Assembly (NCBI RefSeq): GCF_000737575.1
Contig: NZ_CP006270.1
Location: 1,925,163-1,989,162 of the forward strand
Source of the DNA: Synechococcus sp. KORDI-49
Lineage (GTDB): Bacteria; Cyanobacteriota; Cyanobacteriia; PCC-6307; Cyanobiaceae
Reading direction: 5' to 3'
Length of the DNA: 64,000 nucleotides
Positions within the stretch are counted from its first letter, which is position 1; each line of letters opens with the position of its first letter. Positions 24,647 to 33,238 of the stretch are shown one piece after another. A model generated the notes under the pieces. That model saw nothing but the letters and a program-made list of their open reading frames with translations, made no database searches and was not told the DNA's origin. Both the position numbers and the translations under genes were made by a program.

Positions 24647-29251
<4,605 letters not shown>

Positions 29252-29268
29252 TCCGGCCGCGGCGACCT

Positions 29269-29577
29269 GTGGCCTGGTTCATCAAGCACGAAACCTTCAC
29301 GCCGCAGACCGCCGAGCTGTCCCTGGACCAGCGGCGGCCGCACCTGGAGGCCCACCGGGCCTGGGTGGAGCAGCAGGGTGCAGAGGGCCGGCGGATCCGC
29401 AGCGGCTTTCTGGTGGATGAACAGCGCCGCCCCGGTGGCGGCGGGCTGCTGATCTTTGAGGCGGCGTCCTACACCGAAGCCCTGGCGTGGGTGCAGCAGG
29501 ACCCGATGATCCAGGCCGGCCTGGTGAGCTGGACGTTGCAGCAGTGGATTCCCGTCAGCGGGGATGGCTGGCCATGA
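29269..29577 (+). CDS. YciI family protein
   Basis: A 102-aa protein of the YciI/dimeric alpha-beta barrel type: [39 protein letters not shown], then [16 protein letters not shown]. The conserved His in the R-x-x-H-L segment is present. Family members are small enzymes or ligand binders of uncertain role. It starts at GTG 29269, only 17 bp after gltB, so it is probably cotranscribed with it. Its last 23 bp overlap the end of convergent lipA. Confidence 0.8.
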
Positions 29578-30424
29578 GCCGCTGCACCTCACCGGCGTGA
29601 TAGCTGCTGCGGGTGAGGGGGGTGCTCACCACCTGCAGGAAGCCCAGCTCCTCTTCGCCGACGTGGCGGTAGTGGTCGAACTGCTCGGGCGTCACGAAAC
29701 GGTCCACCGCCAGGTGCTTGGGGCCGGGGGAGAGGTACTGGCCGATGGTGACGATGTCCACCCGGTGGGCGCGCAGGTCGCGCAGCACCGTGATCACCTC
29801 CTCGTCGGTTTCACCGAGTCCCACCATCAGGCCGGATTTGCTGTATACGCTTGGCCAGCCCTGGCGCACCCGTTGCAGCAGCTCCAGTGAGCGCTCGTAA
29901 ATGCCCTGGGGGCGAGCCAGCCGGTACATGCGCGGCACCGTTTCGATGTTGTGGTTCAGCACATGGGGGGCGGCGGCCATCACGGTGGCCAGGGCGTCCC
30001 AGTTGCCGCAGAAATCGGGGATCAGCAGCTCGATCGTGGTGAGCGGTGAGCGCTGCTTCACCTGCTCGATGCAGGCCACGAACTGGGAGGCACCGCCATC
30101 GGCCAGGTCGTCGCGGTTCACCGAGGTGATCACCACGTGTTTGAGGCCAAGGCGGGCCACCGCCTCCCCCAACCGTTCCGGTTCTGTGGGGTCGAGCTCA
30201 CGGACGCTCTTGTCGAAATCGATGTCGCAGTAGGGGCAGGCTCGGGTGCAGCCAGGCCCCATGATCAGAAAGGTGGCGGTGCCGCCAGCGAAGCACTCAC
30301 CGATGTTGGGGCAGCTGGCTTCCTGGCAGACCGTGTTCAGCTTGAGGTCGAGCAGCAGGTCGGCGACAGCGCCGATCCTTTCCCGCTGCGGGGCTTTGAC
30401 GCGCAACCACTCGGGCTTGAGCAC
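29555..30424 (-). CDS. lipA: Lipoyl synthase
   Basis: A 289-aa radical SAM enzyme that inserts two sulfurs into octanoyl groups on lipoyl domains. The auxiliary cluster ligands CX4CX5C are Cys33, Cys38 and Cys44; the radical SAM CX3CX2C ligands are Cys59, Cys63 and Cys66. The C-terminal SSYHAGE provides the conserved Ser ligand of the auxiliary cluster. It starts at GTG 30424. Cyanobacteria often carry two LipA-type genes; this is a complete one. It is convergent with the YciI gene. Confidence 0.96.
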
Positions 30425-30507
30425 GGCTGATCAGGGTCAATCTCTGACCTTAATGGGGGCAAGGGATCTGCTGCCCGGCTGAGGGTCGTCTTCTACGATG
30501 GAACCAA

Positions 30508-30581
30508 CGGGATGTAGCGCAGCTTGGTAGCGCACTTCGTTCGGGACGAAGGGGCCGCAGGTTCGAATCCTGTCATCCCGA
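30508..30581 (+). tRNA. tRNA-Pro (CGG)
   Basis: A 74-nt cloverleaf with acceptor CGGGATG/CATCCCG, a D-arm with AGCTTGGTA, anticodon stem CTTCG/CGAAG around loop TTCGGGA (anticodon CGG), a T-arm with GGTTCGAATCC, and discriminator A. It closely resembles E. coli tRNA-Pro(CGG). The 3' CCA is not encoded. A short hairpin follows. Confidence 0.97.
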
Positions 30582-30585
30582 TTTT

Positions 30586-30604
30586 CAACGCCGATGGCGT
30601 TTTG
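30586..30604 (+). terminator. Short hairpin after tRNA-Pro
   Basis: AACGCC-GAT-GGCGTT followed by TTG lies five bases beyond the tRNA. It could end the tRNA transcript, but the T-run is very short, so read-through into the small membrane genes is possible. Confidence 0.45.
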
Positions 30605-30625
30605 AGTTGCTGAACAAGACTGGAG

Positions 30626-30820
30626 ATGCTGGTGCAGGCTCTGCTGGCGCTTTTGATTCCGACGCTTCTGTTGCTGGGGCTGACCGCTTTAGTGGCGACG
30701 GGTCGATTGCATTGGTCGAGCTCTGCTGAGTGGTTGCTGGCTCGCCAGAACAGGCTCTGGATGGGCGGAATCATCGCTCTGGCGGCGGCCGGTGCGGTGG
30801 CAGCGCTCAGCCGGAACTGA
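30626..30820 (+). CDS. Small two-helix membrane protein
   Basis: A 64-aa hydrophobic protein with two predicted membrane helices: roughly residues 3-25 (ALLALLIPTLLLLGLTALVA) and 45-60 (GGIIALAAAGAVAALS), joined by a polar linker with two Trp. I do not recognise the family. Codon use matches its neighbours, and a second tiny membrane ORF follows after one base, which supports a real operon. It lies 44 bp after tRNA-Pro(CGG). Its size suggests an accessory subunit of a membrane complex, but this is inference. Confidence 0.55.
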   Translation: MLVQALLALLIPTLLLLGLTALVATGRLHWSSSAEWLLARQNRLWMGGIIALAAAGAVAALSRN

Positions 30821-30821
30821 C

Positions 30822-30932
30822 ATGGCTCCGGATGTGCAGCGTTTCGTGATCGCCCAGCTGCTGGTGATCATCGTTCCTGTCGGGGCCCTGTTCTTCGTCT
30901 GGATTCGCATGCTGGGCAGATCCAGGCCCTGA
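30822..30932 (+). CDS. Very small single-helix membrane protein
   Basis: A 36-aa ORF starting at ATG 30822, one base after the stop of the 64-aa gene. It has a polar start (MAPDVQRFVIAQ), one hydrophobic helix (LLVIIVPVGALFFVWI) and a basic end (RMLGRSRP). This is the shape of low-molecular-weight thylakoid subunits such as PsbM or PetN, but the sequence matches none that I know. The tight spacing to the preceding gene suggests coupling. Confidence 0.45.
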   Translation: MAPDVQRFVIAQLLVIIVPVGALFFVWIRMLGRSRP

Positions 30933-31033
30933 TCAACGATGCAATGCCAGCCAACGACTGTTGATCCGATGGCTTTGCTCGGAACCTGTAAAAGCAACAT
31001 GCGTGAGCAAGTGATTCCAGTGCAGATTTTCCG

Positions 31034-31101
31034 CCAAAAATAAAAACTCCCCTGGCCTTCACACCAAGGGAGCAGTCCCTGAACCTGGACACCTCTCCAG
31101 G
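31034..31101 (-). ncRNA. Candidate small RNA 3' end with terminator
   Basis: On the minus strand a hairpin (CCTGGA/TCCAGG, 31084-31101) is followed by a second one (CTCCCTTGG/CCAGGGGAG, 31047-31072) and then TTTTTATTTTT. This has the form of a rho-independent terminator. The nearest upstream minus-strand gene ends about 400 bp away at 31481, so a separate short transcript is possible. The 5' end is unknown; I could not match it to Yfr1, Yfr2, 6S or tmRNA. Confidence 0.35.
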
Positions 31102-31269
31102 CAATCCCATTAAACAGCAAGTGCTACAAAGCATGCTTCTGTTTGTGGCAGTTTGCGAAGGCGGTCTTTTTGACGCTCATTGAATGAATGTTGGACATGG
31201 CGGTGTCATCCCCGATCAACACAAGATGTGCTGTCGTAAGCGTTTTCAGTCACTACCAATAGCGTTGGA

Positions 31270-31300
31270 TCAGCCTGTGCAGATCATCTGCACAGGCTGA
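31270..31300. repeat. 31-bp near-perfect palindrome
   Basis: Arms TCAGCCTGTGCAGAT and ATCTGCACAGGCTGA pair perfectly over 15 bp around a single C. Neither side has a T-run, so it is not a standard terminator. It lies between the first porin gene and the candidate small RNA. Confidence 0.8.
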
Positions 31301-31480
31301 ATTCTTCTGCTTTGTCAGAAAATTGTGGTCGTCATTCGTTCCTTTTTCCTGCTCGAGCTGATGCCCACTGCCAGCAATCAAGATTGAAAAAACTGCCGGA
31401 TCGAACCTGGTCGTCTCACTCCACGCGCGCGAATGATCTGATGCTCTGGCTCGGGGTGATGGTCAGGCTCGGGGACGTTC

Positions 31481-32938
31481 TTAGAACCGGAAACTGGTCT
31501 TCACCAGGGCTCCGAGTTGCTGAACCGTGCGCTGCGATGGTGTTGCCTCCCCCAGCGGTCGCGTCAGCAGAAACAGCGCGGGAGTGACGCTGATGGAGTC
31601 GCTGATCGGCCAGGAGGTCCACCATTCCCACACCAGGCCGTCATCGATCGTGCTGGCGATCACCGGTTGTCCCACCCCCATGCCGATGCTGTGTCCATCG
31701 ATCAGCACATCGCTCCACTCCAGCCCGAGGCTCCAGGATTGACTGTCGCTGTCACGGCGGTTGTAGCCCCAGCCGCCGCTGATCGAGGGAAGCCAGCCAC
31801 TCTGCTCCGGCTGCCAGGAGCCACCGACGCCGAGGGCATGGGTGAATCCCGGTGCGAGCTGCTCCTCACCGCCCATCAGGGCTGAGTAGGTCACCGCCAG
31901 CCGCCAGGCCTCTTGCTCGTAGCCGACCTGCAGCGTCGCGGCACTGTCGGCATGGGCTGTGGCGATCCCGCCAGCGAGCGGGGAACTGCTGTTGCCGTTC
32001 GCTGCCACGTAGTTGAGCGACAGGCTCAGGTTGTCTCCTGGGCTCCAGCTGATGCCTGCCCCGGCGCCCAGTGTTTTGTTGTACGCCCCTGGAGCGCCAT
32101 TGAGAGTCAGCACATCGAGGATGGCATCACTGGGGTACACGCTTGGCCAGAGAGCGAGCATGTCTTCCTGCCCCACCCGGGGTCCGGCGGTGATGGTGAA
32201 GGCGTCACCGATGGGGAAGGCGTAGAAGATCTTGTCGATCGCCAGAAGGTTCGGCGTGGCGCCTTCCTGAAACGCCGTTTCCAGGGTGGCGAGGCTGCTG
32301 GGTCCCGCCCCACCGAACACATTGCTGTCGCCATCGAAGTTTCCAGCACGCAGAACGGTGGTCAGCAGGTCTTTCCCCGTGAAGCTGGTCTCCAGGCTGA
32401 GCTGCAGATCGTTGTTGAAGCTGGTCGCTCCGAAGCGTTGGTTGTTCTGATTCACGAGGGCGTCGGCGGACCCCATGAACCGGTTGGCCCCCAGCACGAA
32501 CGTCGCCAGACCGCTCAGCTTGGTGGTGGTGGAGAAAGACGTCGCGTCCAGTTCCCCGACACGGGCCTCCACGGCGTCCGCGCGGCCCTTGAGGATGGCC
32601 AGTTCCGCTTCGAATTCCCAGATCAGACGCCTGATGGCATCCGTCGTCACGCTCACCTTGTTCAAGCAAGCCTGCAGCAGAGCCGCTGCTTCGTTGCGTG
32701 TCATGGCTGCTGGGCTCCGGGCCATGCCATCGGCTTGGCCGGAGACGCAGCTGTGCTGCTGGTTCAGCTGCGCCAGCTCCCGATAGGCCCAGTCCTCAGG
32801 GGTCAGATCCATCCATCGGTTGAGGCGGTTCAGTGGCTCGCTGGCTTCGGCCGCCAGCGGTGCCAGCAGGCTGAGGGTCAGCGGAACCATCAGGCATCGG
32901 CGGAGATGAGGCAAGCGGTGTCCTGACGACGTGAGCAT
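31481..32938 (-). CDS. SLH/OprB-type iron-uptake porin (first copy)
   Basis: An outer-membrane porin of about 485 aa of the cyanobacterial Som type. A basic N-region and hydrophobic core ending LAAEAS form the signal peptide. An SLH-like region follows (DLTPEDWAYRELAQLNQQHSCVSG, MTRNEAAALLQACL), then a coiled stretch AELAILKGRADAVEARVGELDATSFST and an OprB-like beta-barrel ending in SFRF, an outer-membrane C-terminal signature. The SLH segment is worn: the YPNGTFRGNRAMTR wording of the second porin becomes DGMARSPAAMTR. The start is ATG 32938; ATG 32890 would shorten the signal peptide. It may pass metal ions and small solutes. Confidence 0.9.
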   Translation of the reverse strand: MLTSSGHRLPHLRRCLMVPLTLSLLAPLAAEASEPLNRLNRWMDLTPEDWAYRELAQLNQQHSCVSGQADGMARSPAAMTRNEAAALLQACLNKVSVTTDAIRRLIWEFEAELAILKGRADAVEARVGELDATSFSTTTKLSGLATFVLGANRFMGSADALVNQNNQRFGATSFNNDLQLSLETSFTGKDLLTTVLRAGNFDGDSNVFGGAGPSSLATLETAFQEGATPNLLAIDKIFYAFPIGDAFTITAGPRVGQEDMLALWPSVYPSDAILDVLTLNGAPGAYNKTLGAGAGISWSPGDNLSLSLNYVAANGNSSSPLAGGIATAHADSAATLQVGYEQEAWRLAVTYSALMGGEEQLAPGFTHALGVGGSWQPEQSGWLPSISGGWGYNRRDSDSQSWSLGLEWSDVLIDGHSIGMGVGQPVIASTIDDGLVWEWWTSWPISDSISVTPALFLLTRPLGEATPSQRTVQQLGALVKTSFRF

Positions 32939-33238
32939 CAACCCTACTCAACCGAATTCGCAATTGGATCTGTGATCAACGGGGTCGCTGTTCGTATTGC
33001 CCTCCTGCAGATGCCGCACAGCACCCATCCGGCGTGCATCGGCGTCAAGCCGTGGTGCTTTTTGCACCGCAGCTCCCCTTCAGTGCGCTGAAGTTTTGGG
33101 CCGACTTGTCAGTCCTGGCCTCCGCTTGAGCAAGGTCGAGGGGGAACGTTGCCCTGTCGCGAGCCTTATTGCGAATGACTTGCAATCGCGACTTGATCTC
33201 TGTACTCTTGCAATCAATTCTCAGTCGCGTTAGCTGTG
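32939..33238. other. Divergent intergenic region, porin / Crp-type regulator
   Basis: A 300-bp region between divergent genes. It holds an ATTGC-N9-GCAAT inverted repeat at 33168-33186 and a second TGCAAT half at 33209-33214, close to the regulator start. These could be operators; nothing else stands out. Confidence 0.4.
33168..33186. promoter_or_regulatory. Inverted repeat upstream of Crp-type gene
   Basis: A 5-bp ATTGC/GCAAT inverted repeat with a 9-bp spacer, about 50 bp before the start of the Crp-type gene. The shape suits a dimeric regulator, and autoregulation is possible. It is short enough to be chance. Confidence 0.25.

Follow-up and report, generated by a model that had tools for sequence, protein, structure and literature searches.

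Two conserved families of predicted small membrane proteins in picocyanobacteria, encoded side by side downstream of tRNA-Pro(CGG) in Synechococcus sp. KORDI-49

Two very short open reading frames, ORF1 and ORF2, follow the tRNA-Pro(CGG) gene of Synechococcus sp. KORDI-49 and are, judging by their conservation in sequence, genuine conserved genes of two unnamed families in Synechococcus and related picocyanobacteria. The reading that we favour, with somewhat better than even confidence, is that they are small membrane-protein genes, able to form a bicistron, whose products serve a larger partner as accessory subunits; the best candidate for this partner is the DUF1499 protein. The DNA analysed, here called the window, is a stretch of 64,000 nucleotides (NZ_CP006270.1, positions 1,925,163 to 1,989,162), and all positions given for it are counted from its first letter.

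The original prediction, of a 64-aa two-helix and a 36-aa one-helix ORF lying next to each other behind tRNA-Pro with one base between them, was confirmed by the ORF list, ARAGORN, hydropathy and AlphaFold2 (Table 1); the stop codon of ORF1 (TGA) is followed by a single base (30821) and then by the ATG of ORF2. The divergent upstream gene, which we take to be lipA-like, served as anchor for comparisons of synteny. A 102-aa YCII-domain gene was also seen at 29269-29577, after the glutamate synthase gene. Less than 1 kb separates tRNA-Pro from the next minus-strand ORF, and the 486-aa minus-strand ORF at 31481-32941 is porin-like by eye only and has no Pfam match.

Table 1 Features of the window around the tRNA-Pro(CGG) gene
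Feature	Position	Strand	Remarks
Divergent upstream gene	29555..30424	-	289 aa; radical SAM by Pfam; synteny anchor
tRNA-Pro (CGG)	30508..30581	+	ARAGORN
Hairpin AACGCC-GAT-GGCGTT	30587..30601	+	6-bp, then short T run; fold -6.9 kcal/mol for 30586-30606
GGAG, Shine-Dalgarno-like	30622..30625	+	6 nt before GTG 30632, directly against ATG 30626
ORF1	30626..30820	+	64 aa from ATG 30626, or 62 aa from GTG 30632; two predicted membrane helices
ORF2	30822..30932	+	36 aa; one predicted membrane helix; basic C-terminal tail
Terminator-like hairpin	31046..31073	-	beyond end of the 486-aa minus-strand ORF

The hairpin directly behind the tRNA gene is a possible weak terminator of the tRNA-Pro transcript, and it is absent from the output of the terminator scan. 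That scan returned three terminator-like sites where 1.0 was expected, two of them inside the ORFs (30627-30649 and 30873-30886), which counts against reading the pair as a bicistron. No sigma-70-type promoter was found by the promoter scan in 30400-31300. As many as 49 ORFs of at least 25 aa overlap 29000-32500; short ORFs being this common, open frames alone mean little, and in-frame conservation is what exceeds chance. Two overlapping antisense ORFs (30493-30774 and 30689-31120) were set aside because the conservation runs in the plus-strand frames.

For ORF1 the probable start codon is GTG 30632, since its relatives begin at the residue aligned with Val3, encoded by this GTG, or two residues earlier, and since the GGAG lies 6 nt upstream; GGAG stands 6 nt before the ATG of the ORF1 relatives in three other genomes as well (G013, G016 and G030). 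The predicted length of 64 aa thus holds for the frame from ATG 30626, and the protein itself probably has 62 aa. The AlphaFold2 model (mean pLDDT 79, pTM 0.41) has long helices at residues 2-24 and 41-63 and a short one at 32-39, and hydropathy agrees on the two long helices. The ORF1 family, as defined here, comprises two-helix proteins with P12 and W45 invariant and A8, L16 and G48 nearly so, and the window's ORF1 fits this description in the alignments and in the model; over 16 alignment rows, 14 of the 64 columns are invariant. Foldseek returned no match of the model in the PDB at E<=10. Among the relatives, genome G222 has two copies (L201 and L202) that lie about 0.39 Mb apart and differ in one residue of 61. 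At loci L203 and L208, from two small-genome relatives, ORF1 adjoins genes that look by eye like tetratricopeptide and Cas4-type nuclease genes, and a recombinase-like gene was likewise recognised near ORF1 at L208.

ORF2 is modelled by AlphaFold2 as one helix, residues 3-33 (mean pLDDT 93, pTM 0.50), and hydropathy again agrees. In the ORF2 family, also defined here, the proteins form a single helix with L13, W27 and L31 invariant and P19, V20 and L23 nearly so, which the window's ORF2 fits; a 24-row alignment keeps V15, P19, V20, W27 and L31. The window's protein has A2 and D4, most same-genus relatives D2 and E4, and some relatives begin with GTG, TTG or GTA, conservation of the M1 column not being meaningful. 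A cyanophage origin of ORF2 was rejected: 64 stretches of viral contigs fit the pattern and none of them is a relative.

The relatives sampled comprise 59 genomes, 34 of them from the same genus (the window's own included). At E<1e-5, ORF1 was matched in 17 and ORF2 in 27 of these 34, the own genome included, and neither in any of the 25 other relatives. Matches with E>1e-5 were left out of these counts as likely chance, as were two long unrelated ORFs (L206, L207) and a chance-level match in G057 (L058, E 0.11), whose locus has tRNA-Pro on the other strand. The median dN/dS by the Nei-Gojobori method was 0.19 for ORF1 (54 of 136 pairs usable) and 0.31 for ORF2 (137 of 406 pairs usable), where usable means enough, unsaturated synonymous change, the pairs are non-independent and those with the window copy are near saturation. 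Disruption of the frames in close relatives was looked for, and it amounts to a frameshift after about 40 residues in one of 16 ORF1 relatives (that of the draft genome G014, whose pairs reach dN/dS 0.82-0.92), an in-frame TAG in the short ORF1 relative of G017 and one ORF2 copy of G031 that lacks a start codon. In-frame conservation across genomes together with dN/dS well below 1 indicates that ORF1 and ORF2 are real genes, as had been supposed for the two small ORFs.

Genome G031 has two ORF2 copies (L087 and L077). The startless one, at the DUF1499 locus described below, has GTA where its relatives have GTG, reaches a pair dN/dS of up to 0.87 and looks from its sequence as if it were decaying; the window's ORF2 is nearest to the second copy (73% vs 56%). 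In a search with the same-genus profile, 22 of the 23 same-genus genomes having a match have a single one.

A broadened ORF1 profile matched 157 of 300 genomes of the taxonomic family at E<=0.01, in 44 of 59 genera, some of which had supplied rows to that profile, and a broadened ORF2 profile matched 72 of 300 at E<=0.001, in 6 of 59 genera; several matches occur in some genomes with either profile. At least 85 of the 157 genomes with an ORF1 match have no ORF2 match. Over 145 genomes of the class the ORF1 profile gave seven matches, all in this family, and a scan of 84,980 species with a strict pattern gave six ORF1 loci, five titled Synechococcus and one from a Rubrivirga metagenome bin. The distant ORF2 relatives in genera g32 and g68 rest partly on their own rows in the profile, and the same-genus profile by itself gives them E values of 1e-7 to 0.008.

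Full-length ORF1 was seen directly beside ORF2 only in the window's genome. Conservation of this adjacency across the genus was therefore rejected: in 15 other same-genus genomes with both genes, these are on different contigs or at least 0.8 Mb apart. Among the more distant genomes with positions listed, the nearest ORF1 and ORF2 relatives are about 1.5 kb (G307), 1.6 kb (G185) and 4 kb (G178) from each other. A shortened arrangement is found in G021 and G024, where 5 nt separate the end of a short ORF1 relative from the ORF2 that follows it on the same strand; GH57, DUF1499 and DUF2130 genes belong to this locus as well. The short form (30 aa in G024, with the same ATG used for G021) matches only the second half of the ORF1 profile; hmmsearch gave E 4.9e-6 and 1.9e-6 for the G021 and G024 forms among 15,673 peptides, and each beats 1,000 of 1,000 shuffles. 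Across the 34 genomes of the genus, full-length ORF1 is present in 17 (one frameshifted) and the short form in six (one with TAG), never both, whereas ten have neither and one more has a doubtful match only. An ORF1-type gene thus stands directly upstream of ORF2 in full length in the window and shortened in G021 and G024, and it is absent at the other same-genus ORF2 loci read. On these comparisons ORF1 and ORF2 seem to belong together at least in part.

It may be argued that the two genes are functionally unrelated and that both adjacencies are independent insertions into the same permissive sites, an explanation that we consider unlikely. The DNA 3' of tRNA-Pro(CGG) does vary among relatives, both genes change neighbours often, and over much of its range ORF1 is found where no ORF2 could be detected, all of which would suit insertions of this kind. 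However, the same order and strand with spacings of 1 and 5 nt at two places would be improbable by chance, as a 10-nt interval on one strand is, by our own estimate, a few millionths of a 2.5-Mb genome.

The GH57, DUF1499 and DUF2130 families were each confirmed by Pfam on one example, and ORF2 lies between the GH57 and DUF2130 clusters in 22 of the 28 same-genus ORF2 loci read. In 13 of these 28 loci, which exclude that of the window, the ORF2 stop codon and the inferred DUF1499 start overlap by 4 nt, as GTGA in 12 and as ATGA in one (G018, where DUF1499 was recognised by eye); at the rest of the 28, either some other sequence comes after ORF2 or the gene has another location. G006 and G027 each have a short ORF1 relative 40 nt ahead of the start of DUF1499. 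In G019 (L290), at a contig edge, a short ORF1 relative was seen by eye just before a DUF1499-like start, at a place where tblastn reported no DUF1499. What lies between these two resembles, by eye, the C-terminal part of ORF2 alone, as though the greater part of the gene had been lost there by deletion.

This neighbourhood thus holds ORF2, the short ORF1 relative or both in many genomes of the genus, whereas the genome of the window has both small genes behind tRNA-Pro instead. It keeps the GH57, DUF1499 and DUF2130 genes (C1:131-137 kb), and alignment to G024 shows that the stretch with short ORF1 and ORF2 is missing from that locus; the window copies are the only strong ORF1 and ORF2 matches in the genome. 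DUF1499 was found neither in the window nor around 34 ORF1-family loci (36 searched, two of them not ORF1), nor around 19 loci of ORF2 relatives from other genera, so that the link to DUF1499 is seen only in this genus.

ORF2 relatives of other genera were observed beside several further genes. In five genomes of genus g57 (L187, L190-L193) ORF2 follows about 30 nt after a gene for 121-136 aa, of which the one scanned encodes a YccF-domain protein. At L215 (G185), L276 (G214) and L277 (G118), an ORF2-like gene overlaps by 4 nt an ORF of 73-105 aa with a signal-like N-terminus and is followed after 16-64 nt by a large ORF, which Pfam identifies in G185 as a sulfate-permease-type transporter and which looks like one by eye in G214 and G118.

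In the reading that we favour, ORF1 and ORF2 of the window would be a bicistron (TGA, 1 nt, ATG), likely translationally coupled, and the helical hairpin of ORF1 and the single helix of ORF2 would dock with each other in the membrane. The docked proteins may then act as accessory subunits of a larger membrane partner or complex, perhaps with the DUF1499 protein in this genus. Coupled translation of membrane partners is suggested by the gaps of 1 nt in the window and 5 nt in G021 and G024 and by the 4-nt DUF1499 overlap. The DUF1499 protein is the best candidate partner, as no other gene is joined to ORF1 or ORF2 so often in this genus. The other close neighbours of ORF2 in other genera (YccF, sulfate-permease type and a 43-aa ORF) count against this reading.

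The divergent order of the lipA-like gene and tRNA-Pro(CGG) is kept in all 19 same-genus loci (22 genomes searched, three without match), and only in the window's genome do ORF1 and ORF2 follow. As to how the pair came to lie there, the two small genes are missing from the DUF1499 site and stand side by side at a second one. Either a single piece of DNA may have moved or earlier copies may have been lost and others acquired; ORF1 of the window is the long form. A scan for tRNA genes at 60 ORF2-family loci, reaching 3 to 6 kb to either side as far as the contigs extended, found one at five of them, which makes six with the window. All six are tRNA-Pro, upstream of ORF2 and on the same strand. 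ORF2 follows tRNA-Pro(CGG) at 240 nt in the window, tRNA-Pro(GGG) at about 1.1 kb in G012 (L088), and tRNA-Pro(TGG) at about 320 nt in G100 (L269) and G259 (L273), about 290 nt in G294 (L275) and 93 nt in G208 (L272). The four TGG cases belong to one genus and are probably one event, so that the six represent about three lineages; the pattern was noticed after the fact, and the counts cover ORF2-family loci and not all tRNA genes.

ORF2 is preceded in G100, G259 and G294 by a hydrophobic ORF of 43 aa that stops 4 nt short of it, in a layout like that of the window, and G208 has no such ORF. The 43-aa ORF was rejected as an ORF1 relative, as 823 (the G100 form, shared by G259) and 791 (the G294 form) of 1,000 shuffles score as high. 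Eight genomes (L061-L063, L065-L069) have a tRNA-Val(TAC) gene 0.7 to about 6 kb upstream of full-length ORF1, in the same orientation, and the DNA between the two varies.

Genomic islands flanking tRNA genes, and the tycheposons of picocyanobacteria, carry variable genes at the 3' side of tRNA genes, and the window likewise has variable genes 3' of a tRNA gene. Unlike such elements, the stretch in the window is shorter than 1 kb; the tRNA-Pro 3' end occurs in one copy only in the window, with up to 3 mismatches allowed, which leaves no repeat that could mark an attachment site, and inspection by eye of the listed ORFs next to the pair showed no recognisable integrase. A more far-reaching idea, which we put forward tentatively and hold to be doubtful, is that ORF1 and ORF2 make up a mobile membrane core for some picocyanobacterial complex as yet undescribed, with ORF2 recurring downstream of tRNA-Pro genes of different anticodons in an architecture of tRNA-Pro, tiny membrane ORF and ORF2, which either targeted insertion or use of the promoter of the tRNA might maintain.

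Low-mass subunits with one or two helices, such as PsbM, PsbX, PsbZ, Psb30, PetL/M/N and PsaM, are typical of photosynthetic complexes, and ORF1 and ORF2 are alike to them in length and in having one or two helices. One or both could accordingly belong to a thylakoid complex (photosystem, cytochrome b6f, NDH-1 or oxidase) as low-mass subunits not described so far, although this, too, is unlikely in our judgement. Besides size and helix number, the short N-terminus, conserved-proline helix and basic tail of ORF2 would fit, and a gene that shifts place and yet is retained may point to a product acting in trans. Matches to known families are weak: none of the Pfam or NCBIfam matches of the window proteins goes below E 0.099, and the best matches of their relatives are FixQ for one of 24 ORF2 rows (E 0.0051) and VMA21 for ORF1 rows (E 0.0075). 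The Pfam scans covered 24 + 24 and 16 + 26 alignment rows, and the NCBIfam scans two of those alignments plus the window proteins. Profile searches of the PDB gave nothing convincing (best E 0.15 for ORF1 and 0.29 for ORF2), and the ORF2 profile matched a PsbZ chain only weakly (E 0.55). Identity with PsbM was rejected, since the genome has its own PsbM elsewhere (G000:C1:2075545) and no profile match is convincing, and other photosystem, oxidase and toxin families were rejected for want of a convincing profile match.

Against a thylakoid subunit also speaks the distribution, as ORF2 was not found in 228 of the 300 family genomes and full-length ORF1 was detected in only half of the genus; with such patchy presence neither looks like a core subunit. 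Nor was any photosynthesis gene recognised among the neighbours read, many of which are without identity. The original suggestion, that the second protein has the shape of a low-mass photosynthetic subunit and matches none known, therefore stands as regards small membrane proteins by prediction without a convincing library match, and a photosynthetic role is a possibility at most. A literature search found no description of these proteins, including in the excerpts of PMC5126843, PMC10903887 and PMC2518516 that it covered. The excerpt of PMC5126843 gives a list of low-mass photosynthetic proteins and describes the micro-proteins Norf4, absent from alpha-cyanobacteria (mainly marine Synechococcus and Prochlorococcus), and HliR1, confined to Synechocystis. 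Likened by description, ORF1 and ORF2 share with these micro-proteins the very small size and the prediction of a membrane region.

Membrane-active peptides akin to type I toxins or selfish cargo, spread via tRNA-flanking sites, would also be small, hydrophobic, variable in place, present with several matches in some genomes and sometimes near tRNA genes, and a toxin-antitoxin role has been suggested, in the excerpt of PMC2518516, for other short peptides from overlapping RNAs of Prochlorococcus. The single ORF2 of nearly all same-genus genomes that have a match, the purifying selection and the operon-like overlap with DUF1499 nevertheless make such an origin quite improbable. That ORF1 and ORF2 are chance open frames is scarcely credible, for although short ORFs abound in the stretch, the two frames are conserved over many genomes, their dN/dS is low, and their starts and stops fall at similar places.

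Genome annotation covers small membrane proteins poorly, and picocyanobacteria rank among the major primary producers of the ocean. Two conserved families without a convincing Pfam or NCBIfam match, one of which, ORF1, was detected in about half of the sampled family genomes, would be targets for proteomics and knockout studies. The pair and its DUF1499 neighbour offer a testable guess at a binding partner, and the repeated placement behind tRNA-Pro raises the question of how such genes move or get transcribed.
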